In this document: positions 7,226 to 32,926 of the stretch, one piece after another
How positions within the stretch are numbered: the first letter of the stretch is position 1
Layout of the letters: each line of letters starts with the position of its first letter
Source of the DNA: Gloeobacter morelensis MG652769
GTDB lineage: Bacteria > Cyanobacteriota > Cyanobacteriia > Gloeobacterales > Gloeobacteraceae
Assembly (NCBI RefSeq): GCF_021018745.1
Contig: NZ_CP063845.1
Coordinates: forward strand, 2,418,001-2,482,000
Direction: 5' to 3'
Length of the DNA: 64,000 nucleotides
Position numbers and translations under genes: made by a program
Notes under the pieces: generated by a model
Databases searched by the model: none
What the model saw: only the letters and a program-made list of their open reading frames with translations
What the model was told of the DNA's origin: nothing

Positions 7226-8242
<1,017 letters not shown>

Positions 8243-8280
8243 GGGTCTGCCCCTTGCTGTAGCCGAACTAAAAATGCAGG

Positions 8281-8296
8281 TTCAAGTTTACTTGAT
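8281..8296 (-). promoter_or_regulatory. ArsR-type operator-like dyad upstream of pstS1
   Basis: On the minus strand this reads ATCAA-N6-TTGAA, one base from the perfect ATCAA-N6-TTGAT motif. It lies 39-54 nt upstream of the pstS1 ATG. The same one-mismatch form occurs at a similar distance in front of pstS3. Binding by ArsR1 is inference. Confidence 0.5.
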
Positions 8297-8341
8297 ATGT
8301 CCCCAAAGATGTGCATGCTGTCCTCCAACTCTCTCCCGGAC

Positions 8342-9349
8342 TCAATACTGAGGTGTGCGGGCAAGCAGGTCTTCGAGCTTCGAGCCCACCTCCGCTTTCC
8401 CACCAAAGACAGTGCCGATGCGATTCTGTTGAAAGTGGCCCAGGGAAACGGTGTAGGCTGCTGCCGGAAGCGGTACGTACTTCACCTGCCTGGCAAGCGT
8501 CGGTGCGTTCTTGAGGTAGTACTCGACGAACTGCCGCAGCTCGGGCTTCTCGGCCGCCGCCGCGGCATTGATATAGATAAAGATGGGGCGCGAGAGGGGG
8601 TTGTAGGTGCCGTCCTCGACCGTCTTGTCCGAGGGGAGCACAGGTCCTTTGCCCCCGTCGATACCCACCGCCTTGAGCTTGTTTTTATTTTCAGCGTAGT
8701 AGGCGTAGCCGAAGTAACCGAGGCCGTTTTTGTCGTTAGCGATGCCCTGCACCAGGACGTTGTCGTCCTCGGAGGCCGTGTAATCACCGCGGCTGGCTTT
8801 GGCTTTGCCGACCACCGCCTCGGTGAAGTAGTCGAAGGTGCCGGAGTCGGCGCCGGGGCCGTAGAGCTTCAAAGGTACGTTCGGAAACGATGAGCGCACC
8901 TGATTCCAGTTGGTGATCTTGATCTGTGCCGCCGGTTCCCAGATTTTTTTGAGTTCCGCTACCGTCAGATCACCGGCCCAGGTATTGGAGGGATGCACCA
9001 TGACGGTGAGCGCGTCGTAGGCCACCGGCAGCTCGATATACTGGATGCCCGCTTTTTTGCAGGCGTCCATTTCTTTTTGGAGAATCGGTCGCGAGGCGTT
9101 GGAGATATCGGTCTCGCCGCGGCAGAATTTCTTGAAGCCGCCGCCGGTGCCTGAGACCTCGACGCTCACCCTTACCGCCCCCTGGGTGCTTTTTTGAAAT
9201 GCTCCGGCAGCAGCCTCGGTAACCGGAAAGACCGTGCTGGAACCGTCGATTTTGATCACTGCCTGTGCAGCGGCAGAGGCGGCGGCAATGGTACCCAGCA
9301 AAGCCGTCGCGATCAGGCCGAACCCTGCTTTGTTGCAAACCGACACCAT
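8342..9349 (-). CDS. pstS: phosphate ABC transporter substrate-binding protein PstS (copy 2, type B)
   Basis: 335 residues. ATG at 9349 has GAGGG upstream. The signal peptide is [19 protein letters not shown]. Phosphate-binding segments are [32 protein letters not shown] and [18 protein letters not shown]. It closely resembles the copy at 13422-14438 (type B, with [13 protein letters not shown]) and not its immediate neighbours, which are type A (PGRDSGTYDYFAE). Its upstream gap carries paired Pho-box-like half-sites, not an ArsR-type dyad, so its regulation may differ from the type A copies. Confidence 0.95.
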
Positions 9350-9416
9350 GGTGCCCTCTGATTTTGATCGAACCGGAAGTGGACAGCCAGCATCCTACCA
9401 ACCATTCTTTGCGGCA

Positions 9417-9435
9417 AGGTTAAAACCAGATTAAT
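9417..9435 (-). promoter_or_regulatory. Pho-box-like direct repeat upstream of pstS2
   Basis: The plus strand reads AGGTTAAA-acc-AGATTAAT, two 8-nt units with an 11-nt period. On the coding strand this is ATTAATCT-ggt-TTTAACCT, close to the cyanobacterial PhoB/SphR repeat CTTAACCT. It lies 68-86 nt upstream of the pstS2 start. Confidence 0.55.
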
Positions 9436-9457
9436 TGAGGCAGATCGGTGCAAAAGG

Positions 9458-10471
9458 CTAGAAACTGGCAGTTTTGAGGAGCACCTCGCGGATGGTCAGC
9501 CCCAGGTAGGCGCGACCGCCGTAGACCGTGCCGCGCTTGCCGCGGAAAAAGTGGTTGTTGGCGATATGGTAGCCTTCTGCCGGCAAAGGCACGTAGCCCA
9601 CCGAGGCGGCCAGTTTCTCGCCGTTTTCGAGGTAAAAGTCCACGAACTCGCGCACTTCCGCTTTTTTTTGCGCTGAGACGATATTGACGTAGATGAACAG
9701 CGGCCGCGAGAGCGGGGCGTAGGTGCCCTTTTCGACATTCTTGTCGGTGGGGACCACGGGGCCTTTGCCATTGTCGACGGCGAGTGCCTTCAGTTTGTCT
9801 TTGTTCGCTTCGTAGTAGGCGTAGCCAAAATAACCCAGGGCATTGGGATCCGCGGCCACTCCTTCGACTAGCACGTCATCGTCCTCAGAAGCGATGTAAT
9901 CGCTGCGGGTGTCGGTGTCGGCGGAGCCCAGGATGGCTTCTGCGAAGTAGTCGTAGGTGCCCGAGTCGCGGCCGGGTCCATAGAGCTTCAGCGGCCGGTC
10001 AGGAAAGCCCGGGCGCACCTGATTCCAGCGGGTCACTTTGCCTTGGGCGGAGCGCTCCCAGATTTTTTTGAGTTCGGCGACGGTGAGGTCGCTTGCCCAG
10101 GTATTTTTGGGGTGGACGACGACGGTGAGCGCGTCGAAGGCCACCGGCAGTTCCATAAAGGCGACGTTCGCCCGCCGACACTCATCCATCTCCCTTTGCA
10201 AAATTGGTCGCGAGGCGTCGGAGATATCGGTCTCGCCGCTGCAGAATTTGCGAAATCCGCCGCCGGTGCCGGAGAAGTTGACGGCGATTTTGCCCTGGAA
10301 CTGCTTGTGCTTGGCCTCGAAGGCTTTGGCGGCGGCGCGGGTGATCGGGTAGACCGTGCTCGATCCATCGATTTTGACGGAGGGCGCCTGTGCAGGAAGC
10401 CCCTGCGCCAGGGTCGCACCCGCGGCAAGCGCCACGAGACTGGCGGCGACAGCAAGTTGTTTATTCAGCAT
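9458..10471 (-). CDS. pstS: phosphate ABC transporter substrate-binding protein PstS (copy 3, type A)
   Basis: 337 residues. ATG at 10471 is preceded by AAGGA. The signal peptide is LAVAASLVALAAGATLAQG. Binding-site segments are DGSSTVYPITRA, SGTGGGFRKFCSGETDISDA and GPGRDSGTYDYFAEAILG. It is the closest relative of copy 1 in the window, and their last ~200 residues differ at few positions. It follows pstB after a 224-nt AT-rich gap that holds a perfect and a one-mismatch ArsR-type dyad. It therefore probably has its own promoter in addition to read-through from pstSCAB. Confidence 0.95.
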   Translation of the reverse strand: MLNKQLAVAASLVALAAGATLAQGLPAQAPSVKIDGSSTVYPITRAAAKAFEAKHKQFQGKIAVNFSGTGGGFRKFCSGETDISDASRPILQREMDECRRANVAFMELPVAFDALTVVVHPKNTWASDLTVAELKKIWERSAQGKVTRWNQVRPGFPDRPLKLYGPGRDSGTYDYFAEAILGSADTDTRSDYIASEDDDVLVEGVAADPNALGYFGYAYYEANKDKLKALAVDNGKGPVVPTDKNVEKGTYAPLSRPLFIYVNIVSAQKKAEVREFVDFYLENGEKLAASVGYVPLPAEGYHIANNHFFRGKRGTVYGGRAYLGLTIREVLLKTASF

Positions 10472-10518
10472 TTTGCAAGTCCTTTCTATCGCTACTGCTT
10501 CCTAGACAGCTTCATTAT

Positions 10519-10534
10519 TTCAAAAATTGTTGAT
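10519..10534 (-). promoter_or_regulatory. ArsR-type operator-like dyad near the pstS3 start
   Basis: On the coding strand this is ATCAA-N6-TTGAA, one mismatch from perfect. It lies 48-63 nt upstream of the pstS3 ATG, in the place expected for a promoter-overlapping repressor site. Confidence 0.55.
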
Positions 10535-10672
10535 TTATAAAAGCAGGCGAGCCGCGCCCCATCGCATACCTGCGTCACGACGGCTTCGCGTTAAGAGGCT
10601 TGACCAGAAGCTAGCGAGGCATTTAAAGTTTGAAAATTACCCAAGAATTATATGCTGCTCTCAGATTTATTA

Positions 10673-10688
10673 ATCAAAATTTATTGAT
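10673..10688 (-). promoter_or_regulatory. perfect ATCAA-N6-TTGAT dyad between pstB and pstS3
   Basis: A perfect ATCAA-N6-TTGAT dyad lies 8 nt past the pstB stop codon, about 200 nt upstream of pstS3. It has the same arms and spacing as the site at 14601-14616 in front of pstS4. This is the motif described for ArsR in Synechocystis. Binding here is inferred. Confidence 0.6.
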
Positions 10689-10695
10689 TTAAATG

Positions 10696-11481
<786 letters not shown>

Positions 11482-11488
11482 GGGTTTC

Positions 11489-12406
11489 TTACCACTTGAT
11501 GCGTTTACGAAAAGAGTAGCGCAAGTAAATGGCGAGCGCGTTCATGCCGAGGGTCATCGCGATAAGCACCAGTCCGGCGGCGGCGGCGTTGAGCTGAAAA
11601 GCCGCCTGGGGGCGCGACACCCAGTTGAACATCTGGATGGGCAGCACCGTGAAGCCCGAAGAAAGCCACTGGAAGGAGAAAAACGGAAATTCGGCCCGCA
11701 AGGGTAAATCCGGCAAGAAGGCGATAAAGGTCAAAGCACCGATGGTGATAAGCGGGGCCGTCTCGCCGATCGCCCGCGAGAGGCCGATGATGATCCCTGT
11801 CAGGATGCCGCCGGTCGAGTAAGGCAGGATATGGTCGCTCACCATCTGCCAGCGGGTCGCCCCAAGGGCGTAGGCGGCTTCGCGGATCGAGTCGGGGACC
11901 GCCCGCAGCGATTCGCGCGTCGCTACGATGACGATAGGCAAGATGAGCAGTGCCAGGGTGAGCCCGGCGGTGAGGATGCTCTCCCCCAATCCCAATCCGT
12001 AGACGAAAAGCCCAAGGGCCATCAACCCGAAGATGATCGAAGGCACCCCGGCGAGGTTGGTGATGTTAACCTCGATGATCTCTGTGAACCAGTTCTTGGG
12101 GGCGTACTCCTCCAGGTAAATGCCCGCCGACACCCCCAAAGGCACCGCCGCTGTCGCCGTCACCAGCATCACCAGGCAGCTGCCCACCCAGGCCGACAAG
12201 ATCCCGGCCTGCTCGGCAAAGCGCGACGGAAAGGAAGTAAAAAATTCCGGCCGCAGCCGTGCGGTGCCGTCGACTGCCAAATCCACCAGCAGCGCCAGCA
12301 GCGTCACCAGCCCGACCAGCAGCGCCAGAAATCCGGCGGCAGCAAAGATGAGATCGGCGCGCTTGCGGCTTTTGATCGCCTCACGCAGTTGAACCGCGTC
12401 CATCAA
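11489..12406 (-). CDS. pstA: phosphate ABC transporter permease PstA
   Basis: 305 residues with about six membrane spans. The MetI-type coupling loop is [37 protein letters not shown] is the conserved PstA segment. ATG at 12406 overlaps the pstC stop by 4 nt (ATGA), indicating translational coupling. It pairs with PstC as the inner-membrane channel of the phosphate importer. Confidence 0.97.
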
Positions 12407-13344
12407 TAGACCTCCCGGAAGCGCTTGCGCAACAGGTGGCCGGCGATGTTGAAGGTGAGGGTCATCGCGAGCAGCATCAACCCCGCCGCGAAGATCGTCT
12501 GGTATGCCAGTGTGCCGTGGGGCAGATCCCCGAGGCTCACCTGAACGATGTAGGCGGTGATCGTCGCCGCCGGCTCCGTCGGGTTAAGGGTCAAATTGGG
12601 CTGGGTGCCTGCAGCGATGGCCACGATCATCGTCTCGCCGATGGCCCGCGAGAAGCCCAGCACGTAGGCGGAGGCGATGCCGGAGAAGGCGGAGGGGACC
12701 ACGACGCGCAGGGCTGTCTGCATGCGCGTCGCTCCCATCGCGTAGGAGCCTTCGCGAATCGCCATCGGCACCGAGCGCATCGCATCCTCGCTGAGCGACG
12801 ACACGTAAGGGATGATCATGACCCCGATCACCAGTCCGGCGCTCAACATGTTGAAACCGGGCAGATCCGGGTAGATCTTCTGCAGCAGCGGCGTGACAAA
12901 CAACAGTGCGAAGTAGCCGTAGACCACCGTCGGCACCGCGCTCAACAACTCGAGGATGGGCTTTGCCACCTCGCGCAGTTGGGCGGGGGCATACTCGCTC
13001 AGGTAGATGGCGGCGATTGTGCCCAGGGGAATGGCCACGACCAGGGCGACTACCGTAGTCACCAGTGTCCCAGCAACCAGCGGCAGGATGCCGTAGCGGG
13101 GATTGGCGAACAAAGGCGTCCACTGGGTGTCGGTGAGAAATTGACCCAGGGGCACCTGGGAAAAAAACTGGAACGACTCGAACAACAACACGGCGACAAT
13201 ACCGGCGGTTGTGAACACCGAGGAGAGAGCGGCAAGCAGCAGTATCAGTTCGATGGCCCGCTCGCGCAGGTTGCGCAGGGGCCGGTAGCGCAAGGTACCG
13301 CCTGCGGGTCGGCTCTGCAGACTGGAAGGATCGCTCGTGGCCAT
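12403..13344 (-). CDS. pstC: phosphate ABC transporter permease PstC
   Basis: 313 residues with about six membrane spans. The coupling loop is EGSYAMGATRMQTALRVVVP. GFSRAIGETMIVAIAAG and VPTVVYGYFALLFV are typical PstC segments. It lies 77 nt downstream of pstS4, with a strong stem-loop and T-rich tract in that gap. It overlaps pstA by 4 nt. Together these form the membrane channel of the Pst importer. Confidence 0.97.
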   Translation of the reverse strand: MATSDPSSLQSRPAGGTLRYRPLRNLRERAIELILLLAALSSVFTTAGIVAVLLFESFQFFSQVPLGQFLTDTQWTPLFANPRYGILPLVAGTLVTTVVALVVAIPLGTIAAIYLSEYAPAQLREVAKPILELLSAVPTVVYGYFALLFVTPLLQKIYPDLPGFNMLSAGLVIGVMIIPYVSSLSEDAMRSVPMAIREGSYAMGATRMQTALRVVVPSAFSGIASAYVLGFSRAIGETMIVAIAAGTQPNLTLNPTEPAATITAYIVQVSLGDLPHGTLAYQTIFAAGLMLLAMTLTFNIAGHLLRKRFREVY

Positions 13345-13370
13345 AGATTCATCGGCGTGTGGGGTGACAA

Positions 13371-13407
13371 GAAAAGGCAGGGCCGTGCCAAGGCACGCGC
13401 CCTACCC
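13371..13407 (-). terminator. intrinsic terminator or attenuator between pstS4 and pstC
   Basis: Read on the minus strand, GGTAGGGC-g-CGTGCC, a TT loop, then GGCACG-GCCCTGCC form a stem of about 14 bp followed by TTTTCTT. It lies just after the pstS4 stop. Partial termination here would make more binding protein than permease, a common arrangement in binding-protein operons. Confidence 0.65.
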
Positions 13408-13421
13408 ATGCAGACCAAAAT

Positions 13422-14438
13422 TTAGAACTTCGCTTCGCGGCTCAGCAGATCCTCGATCTTGAGGCCCACCTCCGCCTCCCCGCCGAAGACCGTGCCCACG
13501 CGGTTCTTCTGGAAGTGGCTTAAAGCCACGTCGTAGGCTTTTTTGGGCAGCGGCACGTACTTGACCTGTTTGACCAGGGTGGGGGCGCTCTTGAGGTAGA
13601 ACTCGACGAACTCCTTGACCTCCGGCCGGGCCATCGCCTTGTTGCTTACGTAGATGAAGATGGGGCGCGAGAGGGGGTTGTAGGTGCCGTCCTCGACCGT
13701 CTTGTCCGAGGGGAGCACAGGTCCTTTGCCCCCGTCGACGCCCACCGCCTTGAGCTTGTTCTTATTTTCGGCGTAGTAGGCGTAGCCGAAGTAACCGAGG
13801 GCATTTTTGTCGTTGGCGACGCCCTGCACCAGGACGTTGTCGTCTTCGGAGGCGGTAAAATCGCCGCGGCTGGCCTTGGATTTACCGACCACGGCTTCAG
13901 TGAAGTAGTCGAAGGTGCCGGAGTCGGCGCCGGGTCCATAGAGTTTCAGTGGCGCGTTCGGGAAGGACGGCCGCACCTGGTTCCAGTTGGTGATCTTGCC
14001 CTGGGCGTCCGGTTCCCACACTTTTTTGAGTTCGGCCACCGTCATCGTGCTTGCCCAGGTGTTGGATGGATTGACCATGACAGTGAGCGCGTCGTAGGCC
14101 ACCGGCAGTTCGATGTACTGAATTCCCGCCTCCTTACAGGCGTCCATTTCTTTTTTGAGAATCGGACGCGAGGCGTTGGAGATATCGGTCTCGCCGCGGC
14201 AGAACTTCTTGAAGCCGCCGCCGGTGCCCGAGACGCCGACGGTCACCTTGACCTTTTTGTTTTTCTGGAATTCCTCGGCCATCGCCTCGGTAATCGGGAA
14301 GACCGTGCTCGAACCGTCGACTTTGATGGTCTGCTGGGACTGGGCCTGCGCCTGGGGCGCGGGCATGCTCAAGAACGTGCCGATCAGACCGGCAGTTGCC
14401 ACACTGACTGCCGCTGCTTTTGCGCGTACCGATAACAT
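13422..14438 (-). CDS. pstS: phosphate ABC transporter substrate-binding protein PstS (copy 4, type B, first gene of pstSCAB)
   Basis: 338 residues. ATG at 14438 is preceded by GAGGA. The signal peptide is [20 protein letters not shown]. Phosphate-binding loops are [32 protein letters not shown] and [18 protein letters not shown]. It is most similar to copy 2. It heads the pstSCAB operon. Its upstream region has no Pho-box-like TTAAC repeat that I can see, but it holds one perfect and one imperfect ArsR-type dyad just past the end of arsR1. Confidence 0.95.
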
Positions 14439-27054: not shown

Positions 27055-28719
27055 ATGCTCCCAATCCGACGCCTGCTCGCCTGCACCGCGCTCATCTGCG
27101 CCACCGCCCTCGGTCCGGTCGCTTCTGCCCAGACGGACAACGCCGCCGGGTCGGGCAAGGACTGGTGGTCCCACGTCCGGTTTCTAGCCGACGACCGCCT
27201 TGAAGGCCGCAACACCGGCAGCGAGAGCTATCTGCAGGCGGCGCGCTACGTCGCGGAGCAATTCAAGCGGGCGGGGGCGTTGCCCGCCGGGAGCAAAGGT
27301 TATCTGCAGCCGGTCAAGTTTCAAAGCCGTGTGCTCGATGAGGGCCGCTCCAGCCTGACGCTGGTGCGCGGGGGCACATTCGAAGCGCTGACCATTGGCG
27401 ACGACGCGGTTATCGGCGTGCGCAACGGTATCACCCCCAGTCTTGAAGCGCCCCTGGTCTTCGCAGGCTACGGCCTCACGGTGCCCGAAAACAATTACGA
27501 CGACCTGGCCGGGCTGGACCTTCAAGGCAAGATTGCCGTTGTCCTCAGCGGCGGCCCGGCGGCGATCCCCGGTGCGTTGCGCTCGCACTACGGTTCGGTG
27601 GCCGAGCGCTGGAAATTTCTGAAGAAGGCCGGGGCGGTAGGGCTGATCACGGTGCAGAACCCCAGGATCATGGACATCCCCTGGGAGCGCTCGAAGCTGT
27701 TGCGCTTTTTTCCGTCGATGGTGCTCGCCGAATCTACCCTCCAGGACGCGCCCGATCTGCCTTTGACCGTGGGGATGAACCCGGCCAGCATGGACAAGTT
27801 GCTCGCCGGTTCCGGCACCACCTTCGCCCAGATTCTGGCTGCCGCCGACACCGAAAAACCGCTGCCCAAATTTGCGATCCCCGCCCTGCTCAAGGCCCAG
27901 GTGAGCGTCAAAAGCGACACGCTCACCTCGGCGAACGTTGCGGCCATGCTGCCCGGAAGCGATCCGAAGCTCAAAAACGAGTACATCGTGCTTTCGGCCC
28001 ATCTCGATCACCTGGGGATCGGTGAACCGATCGGCGGCGACCGCATCTACAACGGGGCGATGGACAACGCCGCCGGGGTAGCGACGCTCATCGACGTGGC
28101 TGCGAGCATGCGCGCCCAGAACCTCAAGCTCAAGCGCTCGGTCGTGTTTCTGGCCGTCTGCGGCGAGGAGAAGGGGCTGCTCGGCTCGAAGTTCTTCGCC
28201 AACCGCCCGACGATAGGTCCGCTTGTGGCCAACTTCAACATGGACATGTTCCTGCCCATCCACCCGCTCACGCGCCTGACGGCGCTGGGCCTCGAAGAAT
28301 CGAACCTGGCGGAGCCTTTGCGCGAGTCGGCCGGGCAAGTCGGCGTGAGCGTGATCAGCGACCCGGAGCCCAACCGCAACAGCTTCGTGCGCTCCGATCA
28401 GTACAGTTTCATCCGCACCGGCGTGCCGGCTTTGGCTTTTAAATTCGGCTACGAAAAGGGTTCCGCCGAGGAGAAACTTCAAAAAACGTGGCTGACGACC
28501 CGCTACCACGCCCCGTCGGACGACCTCAACCAGCCGGTGGACCTCGAAGCTGCCGCCAAGTTCAACCGGATCATCGAAGGACTGCTGGTGCGGGTCGCCA
28601 ACCGGCCCGAGCGTCCGGAGTGGAACGCAGCCAGCTTTTTTAAACGCTTCGCCCTCACTGCTCCCGGCGGTACCCCAAATCCCGCAGCGTCGCGTCGGAC
28701 TGGCGCCAACGCTCCTTGA
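27055..28719 (+). CDS. secreted M28-family metallopeptidase with PA-like insert
   Basis: 554 residues with a signal peptide (LLACTALICATALGPVASAQ). Zinc-ligand and catalytic segments of M28 aminopeptidases are present: LSAHLDHLG, GAMDNAAGVATL, CGEEKGLLGS, NFNMDMF and a late His in YHAPSDD. A protease-associated-like region (FAGYGLTVPENNYDDLAGLDL) precedes the catalytic core. It probably trims peptides in the periplasm. Its 3' end overlaps the opposing era gene by 65 nt. Confidence 0.88.
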   Translation: MLPIRRLLACTALICATALGPVASAQTDNAAGSGKDWWSHVRFLADDRLEGRNTGSESYLQAARYVAEQFKRAGALPAGSKGYLQPVKFQSRVLDEGRSSLTLVRGGTFEALTIGDDAVIGVRNGITPSLEAPLVFAGYGLTVPENNYDDLAGLDLQGKIAVVLSGGPAAIPGALRSHYGSVAERWKFLKKAGAVGLITVQNPRIMDIPWERSKLLRFFPSMVLAESTLQDAPDLPLTVGMNPASMDKLLAGSGTTFAQILAAADTEKPLPKFAIPALLKAQVSVKSDTLTSANVAAMLPGSDPKLKNEYIVLSAHLDHLGIGEPIGGDRIYNGAMDNAAGVATLIDVAASMRAQNLKLKRSVVFLAVCGEEKGLLGSKFFANRPTIGPLVANFNMDMFLPIHPLTRLTALGLEESNLAEPLRESAGQVGVSVISDPEPNRNSFVRSDQYSFIRTGVPALAFKFGYEKGSAEEKLQKTWLTTRYHAPSDDLNQPVDLEAAAKFNRIIEGLLVRVANRPERPEWNAASFFKRFALTAPGGTPNPAASRRTGANAP

Positions 28720-29578
28720 CCTTCACAAATAGCTGCAAGTAAATCTGGTGGCCCACCAGTTTCTGCATTTGGTGGCGCGCACCGGTGCCGATCGCCTTGA
28801 GCATCTGACCGCCCTTGCCAATCAGAATAATCTTCTGAGAATCCCGCTCCACCAGGATCGTGGCGAGCACGCGGGTGAGGCTTTCGCCCTCTTCGACTGT
28901 GTCGATCACCACCGCCACCGAATGGGGTACTTCCTCGCGGGTGGCAAGCAGCACCTGTTCACGAATCAGTTCGCCCATGATGAACCGCTCGGGCTGATCG
29001 GTAAACAGATCCGGCGGGTAGTAGTATGGCCCTTCGGGCAGGCTTGAAATAATGTTCTCCAGCAGCGGCTCGACCCCGGAACCTTTGAGGGCCGAAATTT
29101 CGTAGAGCACCGGCTCCGGGTCGAACAGCTTGCGGTAACTCTCGCGAACAGGTTCCACCTGATTTCGGGAGCGGCGATCGATCTTGTTGAGCACCAGCCA
29201 GACAGGCGCTTTATTCCCCTTGAGGCTCTCGGCGATGAACCGGTCGCCCGCCCCGGCTTCCACCGAGCCGTCCACGAGAAAAACAATCCCGTCGGCGGAG
29301 CCCGCCGCGGTGCGGGCATTGTGAACCAGCACTTCGCCCAGACGGTGCTGGGGTTTGTGGATCCCCGGCGTGTCCACCAGGACGATCTGGGCGGTAGGCA
29401 ATGTCAGAATGCCCCGCAGGCGGTTGCGGGTCGTCTGGGCGGTGGGGGAGATAATTGCGACTTTCTCGCCCACCAGCCGGTTGACCAGCGTCGATTTGCC
29501 GACGTTGGGGCGGCCGACGATGGCGACAAAACCCGAGCGAAAGCCCGGAGGTGCGTTTGGTATCACATCAGTGATCAT
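28655..29578 (-). CDS. era: GTPase Era (16S rRNA/30S maturation)
   Basis: 307 residues. G motifs are GRPNVGKS (G1), DTPG (G3) and NKID (G4). The C-terminal KH domain has the signature IILIGKGGQMLKAIG. Era binds the 3' end of 16S rRNA and assists small-subunit assembly. ATG 29578 comes one nucleotide after the stop of the ParA gene and has no obvious ribosome site of its own, so translation may be coupled to that foreign-looking gene. GTG 29566 is an alternative start. Confidence 0.96.
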   Translation of the reverse strand: MITDVIPNAPPGFRSGFVAIVGRPNVGKSTLVNRLVGEKVAIISPTAQTTRNRLRGILTLPTAQIVLVDTPGIHKPQHRLGEVLVHNARTAAGSADGIVFLVDGSVEAGAGDRFIAESLKGNKAPVWLVLNKIDRRSRNQVEPVRESYRKLFDPEPVLYEISALKGSGVEPLLENIISSLPEGPYYYPPDLFTDQPERFIMGELIREQVLLATREEVPHSVAVVIDTVEEGESLTRVLATILVERDSQKIILIGKGGQMLKAIGTGARHQMQKLVGHQIYLQLFVKVKERWRQSDATLRDLGYRREQ

Positions 29579-29579
29579 G

Positions 29580-30590
29580 TTAAGAGAGTGCCATCGAATG
29601 TATCCCTGCAGCTTCCAGAATTTTCTTAGTCAACTTTCTAAAATCGTTGAATGCATTGGTCACTGCCTTACCATGCGCGCCAAGGGCACCGTCAGCAGGC
29701 TTCAGATGAAACATCGGCTTGTGTGCTTCCTGTGCCATTGGCATCAAACTCTGATAGTTTTTCAGCAAAGCTAAACAATTTGGATCTTGGGTTATTTCCC
29801 TTTCATCACAGATTTCTTCGTCAAGTACATCCTTGCAGTATGTCCCAGGAATTTGGGCTATCCAACGCATATATGCCTTGACCGGCCGATCCAGTCTTAC
29901 GGCGTGCTGCATCACGATATATCCAATCGTTTTCATACGACCGGGCGGCAAGAGCAAATCTTCTGCCGGGTTGCGCGGTACACGCTCTTTCCAGTCGTTG
30001 CGCCAGTGTCTGAGTGTCGGTCCCAGGTTTCGTAAACCCTGGAGAGAGTAAAGGTCGGGCGTGAGAGGTACGACGATATAGTCAGATGCTATCAACGCTG
30101 ATCTGTTGATTGCTCCAAGGTTGGGCCCCAAATCCATCAAAATAACCGATGCATCTACAATTTCTGCCGCACTTTGCAAGGCTCTCCACAGAGAGGAAAT
30201 AACCCGAAATGAACGCTCGTCGCCGTCCATGCATTTGGGCCATACTTCTGAAAGTTGGTCTTCAAATCCAGAGAGGGCCAGATCGCCAGCAAGTAATGTC
30301 AACCTTTGTTCTATTTTTTCAAGTCGAGGGGTGTTACTGACATCTCCCACACCTTTCACCAGAGGTTGTACCATTCTGTAAATGGTGTTGGGTATTTGCT
30401 GGCCCTGCTGCCATAGTTCCTCTAGACGATCTTCATCCAAAAAAGCGCCAGTGAGGTTGGCTTGTGGATCTAGATCGGCGGCAAGAACATTCCAACCCAA
30501 CTCGCTTAGCATCCACGCAATATGGTAAACGAGGGAAGTCTTGCCAACGCCTCCTTTGTTGTTGAAAAATGCAATCACTGGTATAGCCAA
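29580..30590 (-). CDS. ParA-family ATPase of a low-GC two-gene module
   Basis: 336 residues from a TTG start at 30590, with AAGGAG 10-15 nt upstream inside the end of the preceding gene. The deviant Walker A is NNKGGVGKTSL, with Lys12 and Lys17. DLDPQANLTGAF and ILMDLGPNLGAINRSAL complete the ParA/MinD nucleotide site. The tail (about 200-336) is unlike chromosomal ParA and is not followed by a parB. Base composition is clearly lower in GC than its neighbours. It is coupled to the AlbA_2 gene upstream and abuts era downstream by 1 nt. It may belong to a mobile or defence-type module; its function is unknown. Confidence 0.8.
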   Translation of the reverse strand: MAIPVIAFFNNKGGVGKTSLVYHIAWMLSELGWNVLAADLDPQANLTGAFLDEDRLEELWQQGQQIPNTIYRMVQPLVKGVGDVSNTPRLEKIEQRLTLLAGDLALSGFEDQLSEVWPKCMDGDERSFRVISSLWRALQSAAEIVDASVILMDLGPNLGAINRSALIASDYIVVPLTPDLYSLQGLRNLGPTLRHWRNDWKERVPRNPAEDLLLPPGRMKTIGYIVMQHAVRLDRPVKAYMRWIAQIPGTYCKDVLDEEICDEREITQDPNCLALLKNYQSLMPMAQEAHKPMFHLKPADGALGAHGKAVTNAFNDFRKLTKKILEAAGIHSMALS

Positions 30591-30591
30591 T

Positions 30592-31785
30592 TTAATTCTC
30601 CTTACGGCGTTTCAGGACTGCAAGTACTTGGTCAAAATTCACATCAAAGTAAAGTTCAGGGTTGCCGTTCTTTTCAAGTTCTTTTTTCGCAATCGCGATG
30701 CCGAGTCCAAAACGCTGAACGTACCCAAGATTCTTCATAACTTCGGCAAGATTGGGATTACGGTAATCTGTAACACCTGGCTGGCCGAAGTTGCTGGGAG
30801 TGCTTTGTCCAAACGGCCCCCCTGGATTGAGAATTTCTAGACGGTCAGAGAACCATGTAATTCTTACAGGAGAGTTTGTCGCTTCATAGGTTCGATGAAG
30901 GATGGCGTTTCTGGCTATTTGCTGAAGTGCTGCGATTGGATAATCGGGCCATTTACTCTCAACCGATCCAGTGGTAAAGTCCGTTGATGTTGAAATGTTC
31001 AGCTGCAAAACCTCATCTAATTGGCGCAGGATTTGAAGCAAATGACCAGATAATTCTTTTTGATCTTTAATAGGGTCAGTGATTTCCTGCCCATCGATTC
31101 GCAAAAACTGCACATAAGCACCTGGCAGGAACTGTCTAGGTTCATTGCCAACGGATAAGATACCAAGATTTGTCGGAGATCCAGTCTTCGCGATAAACCG
31201 TACCGACATCAATCGTTCATTTACTGTTCGCTGATTCAGCTCTAAAACGTCAGGAGATATAGCTGTCGGCAAATACGTATCGCAGAAAAAACCAAGATCT
31301 AGATCCTCAAGACTGGCGCCGGGCACGGTGCGGATGTCGAAGGGTATATCTGAAGATCTGCGCTTCTCCGATAGCGAGCGTTCTTCTTGGGGTGTCGCTG
31401 TAGCTTTGCGCGGCCCAACCCGGATCCAGGTACGCCCCTTGTACCGAACAGGCGGGGCATAAGAAGGTTGGACTATTACAGCGGCTACCTCACAGTCAAG
31501 AAGCACGCGCTTCTGAACAATCATTTCAGGGAAAGGGAGGATGTTGCCATCGGAGCGAATACCGGCAATGTCCCTAAGCAATTGATCTGTAATCGCTAAA
31601 TCCGCGCACCTGCCATCGTCATAGACACCAATAAAATATATGCCCGGCTTCTGGTGATTCGGCAGGTCATTAGAAAACGCACATATCGCTTCGCAGAGCT
31701 TGTCCTTATCCCTTACTGAACTCGTCCGCTCAACCCGGTCAGATTCAAGATCGCTAAGCAGTAATTCAAGCTCTTGATCAGTCAT
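30592..31785 (-). CDS. AlbA_2 (Schlafen-like) plus GHKL-like C-terminal domain protein
   Basis: 397 residues from ATG 31785; GTG 31791 would add two. The N-terminal third fits the AlbA_2/Schlafen domain, with an acidic patch (ESDRVERTSS), AICAFSNDLPN and GIYFIGVYDDGR. The C-terminal part resembles the HATPase_c_4 region of such proteins: ALQQIARNAILHRTYEATN and WFSDRLEILNPGG. In other bacteria these proteins are variously annotated as regulators, RecG-like helicases or defence components. It is low in GC and ends 1 nt before the ParA start. A dyad lies directly upstream. Confidence 0.8.
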   Translation of the reverse strand: MTDQELELLLSDLESDRVERTSSVRDKDKLCEAICAFSNDLPNHQKPGIYFIGVYDDGRCADLAITDQLLRDIAGIRSDGNILPFPEMIVQKRVLLDCEVAAVIVQPSYAPPVRYKGRTWIRVGPRKATATPQEERSLSEKRRSSDIPFDIRTVPGASLEDLDLGFFCDTYLPTAISPDVLELNQRTVNERLMSVRFIAKTGSPTNLGILSVGNEPRQFLPGAYVQFLRIDGQEITDPIKDQKELSGHLLQILRQLDEVLQLNISTSTDFTTGSVESKWPDYPIAALQQIARNAILHRTYEATNSPVRITWFSDRLEILNPGGPFGQSTPSNFGQPGVTDYRNPNLAEVMKNLGYVQRFGLGIAIAKKELEKNGNPELYFDVNFDQVLAVLKRRKEN

Positions 31786-31796
31786 TGCCACCCTAT

Positions 31797-31816
31797 TTGG
31801 TGACTGTTCACACCAA
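31797..31816 (-). promoter_or_regulatory. dyad upstream of the AlbA_2/ParA module
   Basis: TTGGTG at 31797-31802 and CACCAA at 31811-31816 flank GTGA/TCAC arms, in the 46-nt gap between prfA and the AlbA_2 gene. The position suits an autoregulatory operator. No protein can be assigned to it from sequence alone. Confidence 0.35.
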
Positions 31817-31831
31817 TATACCTTGACAAGC

Positions 31832-32926
31832 TTAGCCGCTGCTGCGGGCCAGTTCCGCGAGTTGTTCGCGCTGGGCGGCGGCGATGGCCGATTGGATCAG
31901 GGTCTCGATTTCGCCTTCGATGGCGGTGTTGAGGGTAAAATTCTGGCTCAGGCGGTGGTCGGTCACCCGGTTGTCTTTGTAGTTGTAGGTGCGGATCTTT
32001 TCAGATCGATCGCCGGTACCGACCTGGGAGCGGCGCATCCCGGAGACCTGTTCGTGCTGCTCGCGCTGTTTGATATCGTAGAGCTTGACGCGCAGAATCT
32101 GCATGGCGCGCGCTTTATTTTGCAACTGCGAGCGCTCCTCCTGGCAGTGGATATGGATGCCGGAGGGCTTGTGGACCAGATGGACCGCCGTTTCGACTTT
32201 GTTGACGTTCTGGCCGCCCGCCCCGCCCGAACGGGTCGTGGTGATCTCGATGTCGTTGGGATTGATCTCGACGTCCACTTCTTCGACCTCGGGCATGATC
32301 GCGACGGTGGCCGTGGAAGTATGCACGCGCCCCTGGGTCTCGGTGACCGGCACGCGCTGGACGCGGTGGACCCCCGCTTCGAATTTGAGCTTGGAATACA
32401 CGCTCTCGCCGCGAATTTCGAGGATCACTTCTTTGAAGCCGCCCATCTCGGCGGGCGATTCGCTGGCAAGCTTCACCGACCAGCCCTGGCTCTCCGCGTA
32501 GCGGATGTACATACGCATCAGGTCGCCTGCGAAGATGGCCGCCTCGTCACCGCCGGTCCCCGCCCGAATTTCGAGCATGACGTTCTTGTCGTCGTTGGGA
32601 TCGCGCGGCAACAGCAGCAGCGTAATCTCGTCTTCGAGCCGGGCGATGCGCTCTTCGAGGCCGGTGTGCTCCTCTTCGGCCAGTTCGCGCAACTCGGGAT
32701 CTTGCTCGTCGCGAATCATCTGGCGAACGGCGTTGCGTTCTGCGCACAGCCGCTGCCACTGGTCGTAGGCTTCGACCGTACGCTCCAGGCCCGCGCGCAT
32801 GCGCACGATGCGCAGCATCTCCTGGGGGTTGTTTGCCAGGCTCGGGTCGCCCAGGCGGGTGGTCAAATCGTTATAGGTTCGCTCGATGTCGTTGAGCTTC
32901 TGAACCATTAAATCGGGGCTGGCCAT
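31832..32926 (-). CDS. prfA: peptide chain release factor 1
   Basis: 364 residues from ATG 32926, with GGAGGAG upstream. It carries the PxT codon-recognition tripeptide in [10 protein letters not shown] and the catalytic GGQ in [12 protein letters not shown]. The PVT form assigns it to RF1 (UAA/UAG), not RF2. It ends next to the low-GC ParA/AlbA_2 pair, which appears inserted between prfA and era. Confidence 0.97.

Follow-up and report, generated by a model that had tools for sequence, protein, structure and literature searches.

A Schlafen–ParA gene pair inserted between prfA and era in Gloeobacter morelensis: a probable immune system, so far uncharacterised

The window analysed here is a stretch of 64,000 nucleotides of Gloeobacter morelensis MG652769 (contig NZ_CP063845.1, positions 2,418,001 to 2,482,000), in which two genes lie between prfA and era. 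Gene 1 (30592..31785, minus strand) encodes a Schlafen-type (AlbA_2) putative RNase of 397 aa with a C-terminal GHKL/HATPase_c_4 domain, as assigned from Pfam, homologue starts, conserved residues and a structural model. Gene 2 (29580..30590, minus strand) encodes a ParA/Soj-like deviant Walker-A ATPase of 336 aa that ends, at its C-terminus, in ~100 aa of alpha/beta extension (Pfam, residues and model). The flanks outside the module are the host genes prfA upstream (31832..32926, minus strand) and era downstream (28655..29578, minus strand; assigned from the sequence and from relatives). The left junction, from the prfA stop to gene 1 (31786..31831), holds the inverted repeat TTGGTGtgaacagtCACCAA, and the right junction is a single base (29579..29579) that separates the stop codon of parA from the ATG of era. 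Gene 1 starts with an ATG (31785), backed by homologue starts, with an upstream GTG at 31791 as a possible alternative; gene 2 starts with a TTG. The two are 1 nt apart, and AAGGAG occurs in the final codons of gene 1 (...CGT AAG GAG AAT TAA A TTG).

Both genes also differ from their neighbours in composition. Their GC contents are 0.475 (gene 1) and 0.481 (gene 2), and their GC3 values of 0.45 and 0.475, against 0.76 for era and 0.82 for prfA, are the two lowest among all ORFs of 200 aa or more in the window (42 ORFs; mean 0.76, sd 0.08). The original prediction, made from the sequence alone, had described a coupled pair of lower GC than the flanking housekeeping genes, ending 1 nt before era and free of parB, transposase or integrase; our analysis bears out each of these points, and none of the latter three was seen beside the pair. 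Elsewhere in the window (7226-14438, minus strand), four paralogous PstS-like phosphate-binding ORFs were seen by eye in a row around transporter genes of the same system.

Within the genus, this site varies. In two genomes (G001 and G003), prfA and era overlap directly (GGATGA) with nothing inserted. A third (G002), whose Era is 95% identical to that of the window, keeps ~20 codons of the parA 3' end before era, the remainder being replaced by other sequence near the contig end; no close Schlafen copy was found in this genome. The empty sites and the parA remnant indicate that the pair was acquired at the prfA-era site after the genus arose and was later lost, all but this remnant, from one of the related genomes. 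In the window (28655-32926), the insertion lies inside the prfA-era unit, and a single base separates the start of era from the stop codon that now precedes it; expression of era thus probably passes through the foreign genes.

To gather related loci, a profile built from seven Schlafen homologues was run on one-genome-per-species GTDB data, matching at least 553 contigs. The best 80 of these, 50-65% identical and essentially full length, form our locus set and span cyanobacteria, Myxococcota/deltaproteobacterial MAGs, Planctomycetes, Acidobacteria, Chloroflexi, Elusimicrobia, Proteobacteria and methanogens. A ParA gene directly follows the Schlafen/AlbA_2-GHKL gene in 75 of these best 80 loci, with starts overlapping or abutting. 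The original prediction had named as counter-evidence a pair present at this locus in all relatives with normal composition, or one never found together elsewhere; we find instead empty sites, low GC3 and a pair that recurs. In the other five of the best 80 (L098, L126, L129, L130 and L134), the Schlafen gene has no ParA partner, so a cell can tolerate it without strictly needing ParA. At L098 (2421-3552, plus strand), the Schlafen gene is followed at 5 nt by what appear by eye to be HTH-nucleotidyltransferase (MNT) and HEPN genes, without ParA.

The distribution is patchy, with the pair present in 18 of 386 genomes of a sample of the cyanobacterial phylum. Among 72,556 plasmid records, we found no copy at comparable identity (nearest matches 36% for ParA and 27% for Schlafen), and 50,697 phage records held nothing closer than these. 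A scan of viral contigs with the Slfn pattern gave no match; two IMG/VR contigs found via ParA (L143 and L144, ParA identity 51-55%) do carry the pair. In L144 (8981-11296), the gene behind the pair matches PglZ only weakly (2.8e-5, slightly below the cut-off), which suggests a BREX-like context. The module is thus horizontally mobile, with plasmids seemingly not its main carrier.

At most loci, the pair stands alone, and the genes around it serve metabolism or housekeeping. Clustering of neighbours found no recurring third gene among the best 80 of at least 553 loci, and uvrA adjoins the pair at a Nostocales-type site in nine of them. These neighbourhoods bear on the idea that the pair has been domesticated to regulate stress responses or translation in connection with prfA and era. 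It is co-directional and tightly packed with both genes in the window, and one further pair (L045) lies downstream of a prfB-like gene. However, the composition is foreign, the site is empty in G001 and G003, and neither prfA nor era adjoins the pair in the other 80 loci (the best of at least 553), making this reading most improbable.

The gene 1 protein matches AlbA_2 (PF04326, 5.3e-10, above the cut-off) and HATPase_c_4 (PF13749, 3e-16), the C-terminal GHKL ATPase domain being an addition to the original prediction; Pfam gave no HEPN domain. Two carboxylates, E14 and E19, are conserved in 78/78 homologues and a third, D56, in 70/79 (N in seven), and the window protein carries all three. This E/E/D spacing resembles that of SLFN11/13. 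In the GHKL domain, N293, H297, G322 and G360 are invariant. At position 21, the window protein has T where 74/78 homologues have K, and the window copy may therefore be altered. The structural model (pLDDT 93.3, pTM 0.72) matches PDB entry 3lmm over its length. Within the model, residues 4-147 resemble the SAMD9 tRNase domain (Z 9.4, 3.6 A, 137 aligned), the N-domain also matches Schlafens, and residues 221-397 match GHKL kinases. Gene 1 thus probably encodes a metal-dependent RNase acting on tRNA, as far as fold and residues can indicate.

ParA ATPases are textbook DNA-segregation motors. Gene 2 matches AAA_31/ParA (PF13614, 5e-28), and its deviant Walker A (KGGVGKT) and A' motifs are intact; K12 is found in 76/77 homologues, K17 in 75/77, and the aspartates D39, D41 and D153 in 77/77. 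Its model (pLDDT 93.6) is closest in fold to 3pg5 and Soj. A partition or replicon-stabilising cassette, in which ParA moves a cargo and the AlbA_2 protein is a DNA-binding, ParB-like adaptor, would fit these motifs and this fold, and AlbA_2 domains are frequently annotated as DNA-binding. Yet the genes are chromosomal, at scattered sites among housekeeping genes, with only the remote plasmid matches given above, and gene 1 conserves nuclease-type carboxylates. No ParB-like neighbour was seen around the window pair, nor centromere repeats. The inverted repeat TTGGTGtgaacagtCACCAA was considered as a common operator and rejected, as only the window copy has it and no upstream repeat or palindrome is common to the homologues. 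With sister ParAs also paired with HEPN, SIR2 or RelA proteins (see below), we regard a partition cassette as very unlikely.

Neighbouring genes were grouped by unbiased clustering and then named with Pfam and PADLOC (DUF1156, DUF499, HmaA/HmaB/HmaC). At eight of the 80 best loci (drawn from at least 553), the pair lies within or beside Hma/BREX-related genes for SNF2 helicase, DUF1156 methylase and DUF499 ATPase (L071, L078, L079, L086, L109, L112, L137 and L139), always co-oriented with them and at some loci with a partial operon. L078, for example, reads helicase, 105 nt, Schlafen, ParA, an ATGA overlap and DUF1156 methylase. Assuming one Hma operon in every genome, ~4 Mb genomes and random placement, ~0.5 such loci are expected among 80, against the eight observed (Poisson P ~6e-8). 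The window itself has no such helicase, methylase and ATPase operon, so its copy is not embedded; PADLOC recognised neither gene as part of a known system, with only partial matches to the pAgo and PDC-M28B models. Outside the Hma-type loci, matches to defence genes are scattered (Iet, type III methyltransferase, AbiLi, PDC-M05/M38), and we do not claim a general defence-island habit. At L137 (5985-7625, plus strand), a second AlbA_2-type gene was seen by eye upstream of the pair, immediately after the gene for the Hma-type helicase.

We also compared how the two genes decay. With both proteins as queries in cyanobacteria, the Schlafen gene was broken or deleted beside an intact ParA in six genomes (G008, G017, G024, G266, G251 and G166), while the reverse was never found (6 vs 0, two-sided sign test P 0.03). 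One-way surveys of two other phyla added three Schlafen-broken, ParA-intact genomes (G510, G644 and G443). Sequencing error in drafts could account for some of the single stops, but not for the deletions found in G251 and G166. Two further candidates were discarded: an apparent Schlafen break in G041 (L049) was 635 masked N rather than a lesion, and a TGA inside the ParA of G447 (L303) disappeared on checking the frame. Schlafen-first decay fits a costly effector restrained by ParA.

This decay would also suit a selfish toxin-antitoxin (addiction) module, in which a Schlafen RNase toxin and a ParA antitoxin persist as their loss kills the cell, with no antiviral role. The operon has the two-gene, overlapping layout of such modules, a ParA-HEPN dyad has been proposed as a toxin-antitoxin system (PMC3710099), and a module placed within the prfA-era operon would be hard to delete. 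Against this, most or all of the module has been lost in three relatives (G002, G010 and G007), the Schlafen gene stands without ParA at the five loci listed above, the pair is nested in Hma/BREX-related operons, and no close copy was found on plasmids, where addiction modules abound. On balance, we think an addiction module rather unlikely.

Remote full-length relatives of the window ParA (~25-36% identity) occur in overlapping or tightly packed operons with other partners. HEPN proteins (PF18735) accompany them at L033 and L034, in Pf1 and another Pf-type phage, on a Burkholderia plasmid and at all eight of L274-L281, these eight being assigned by match to the HEPN of L034. SIR2 partners (PF13289) were found on plasmids of Vibrio, Salmonella and Spirosoma (in the last case identified by record annotation), on a prophage contig and in proteobacterial genomes. 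Small RelA/SpoT proteins (PF04607) lie directly behind ParA at L273, L313, L317 and L319, a possible ParA-alarmone-synthetase pair. At L224 (2489-4040, Pf1 prophage) and L225, the end of the gene for the Soj-like 'putative regulatory protein' of Pf1 is overlapped by the next ORF, a HEPN ORF (PF18735) that carries no annotation. The partner of one diverged ParA (L291, 652-1383, minus strand) matches no Pfam family and is possibly a further class of effector. The ParA of a P22-like phage (L223) was rejected as paired, having no co-directional, effector-sized ORF directly behind it.

In a tree of these ParAs, which has few outgroups and some long branches, the SLFN-paired (100/98), HEPN-paired (100/96) and SIR2-paired (100/99) proteins each form one group, so partner type follows ParA lineage for these three; the RelA/SpoT-paired ParAs fall in two places. 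A 99/97 split sets the effector-paired ParAs and related sequences apart from Soj and two further ParAs. In a broader reading, this ParA/Soj clade would have become a general immune regulator that joins, in two-gene operons, with any of four or more exchangeable suicide effectors (Schlafen RNase, HEPN RNase, SIR2 and RelA/SpoT), in Bacteria and Archaea alike and on plasmids and prophages as well as chromosomes. The pair in the window would then belong to a chromosomal, plasmid-independent Schlafen branch, and nucleotide- and DNA-dependent switching of ParA would be the infection sensor. We hold this only tentatively, as something that may nearly as well be true as false.

As the pair is sometimes found inside anti-virus operons, and relatives of its ParA accompany other suicide-type enzymes, it probably serves bacterial immunity as a system not characterised before. 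The original prediction of an uncharacterised defence or stabilisation module is thus supported, with defence favoured over stabilisation by the Hma/BREX nesting at eight of the 80 best loci (from at least 553), by the suicide-effector ParA clade and by the lack of a comparable copy in the plasmid records. Our best explanation, which we consider fairly likely, is a horizontally mobile, two-gene module of the abortive-infection type, with a Schlafen RNase effector and a ParA ATPase regulator. In such a module, the gene 1 product would be the effector, probably cutting tRNA and gated via its own GHKL ATP-binding domain. ParA, made by translational coupling in roughly matching amounts, would bind the gene 1 product and hold it inactive. 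Phage infection would shift the nucleotide- or DNA-bound state of ParA and so release or activate the RNase; translation would halt in the infected cell and the infection would abort. If true, a widespread branch of ParA that controls RNA-cutting or suicide-type enzymes would give the ParA ATPases a second role in bacterial immunity, with a switch mechanism that can be tested. It would also join an isolated ParA-HEPN prediction from 2013 with newer work on bacterial Schlafens, and account for many chromosomal genes annotated as a lone 'ParA family protein' or 'ATP-binding/RecG-like protein'.

The open literature we searched holds no description of Schlafen-ParA, ParA-SIR2 or ParA-RelA/SpoT pairs; bioRxiv work on bacterial Schlafens, outside that scope, may include Schlafen-ParA. 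The best PDB matches are 3lmm (C. diphtheriae DIP2311) for gene 1 and 3pg5 (DIP2308) for gene 2, with tags three genes apart. We do not claim them as proof of one known locus, since DIP2308 groups with the SIR2-paired ParAs.

Schlafen-kinase proteins are described as BREX/BR accessories in more than 1000 taxa in the searched text of PMC12839542, a BREX survey; the operons named Hma by the PADLOC authors (PMC8565338) go under the name Type-1 BR systems there. Like gene 1, these Schlafen-histidine-kinase-like accessories fuse a Schlafen RNase to a GHKL-like domain, within DUF499/DUF1156/helicase operons. Unlike them, most copies of the Schlafen-ParA pair are solitary, and that same text makes no mention of a fixed ParA partner. 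The Hma-embedded candidates (HECs) of PADLOC (PMC12988326, PMC8565338) follow the same guilt-by-embedding logic, being cassettes inside a helicase-methylase-ATPase operon, whereas the window copy is not embedded and neither of its genes is covered by a PADLOC model.

WonAB and related pairs (PMC12137116) offer a functional parallel, as two-gene ATPase and nuclease systems that abort infection by stopping translation, but their folds (an ABC/OLD ATPase and a PD-(D/E)xK nuclease) are unrelated to those of the window pair. The WonAB ATPase is needed for toxicity, rather than being a simple antitoxin (PMC12137116), so the direction of ParA control proposed here could be reversed. Finally, a 2013 analysis of HEPN domains proposed ParA/Soj as the antitoxin of HEPN RNases (MAE_18760 family dyad) (Anantharaman et al., PMC3710099). 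Like the window pair, this dyad combines genes for an RNase and a ParA/Soj ATPase in a two-gene operon. The ParAs of the HEPN dyads found here (PF18735) are relatives of the window ParA at an identity of only ~30%, and our tree, with its few outgroups, places them in the same subfamily. The effector differs, being AlbA_2-GHKL in the window and HEPN in the dyad, as does the gene order: the effector precedes ParA in the window module, whereas ParA comes first in the ParA-HEPN dyad.
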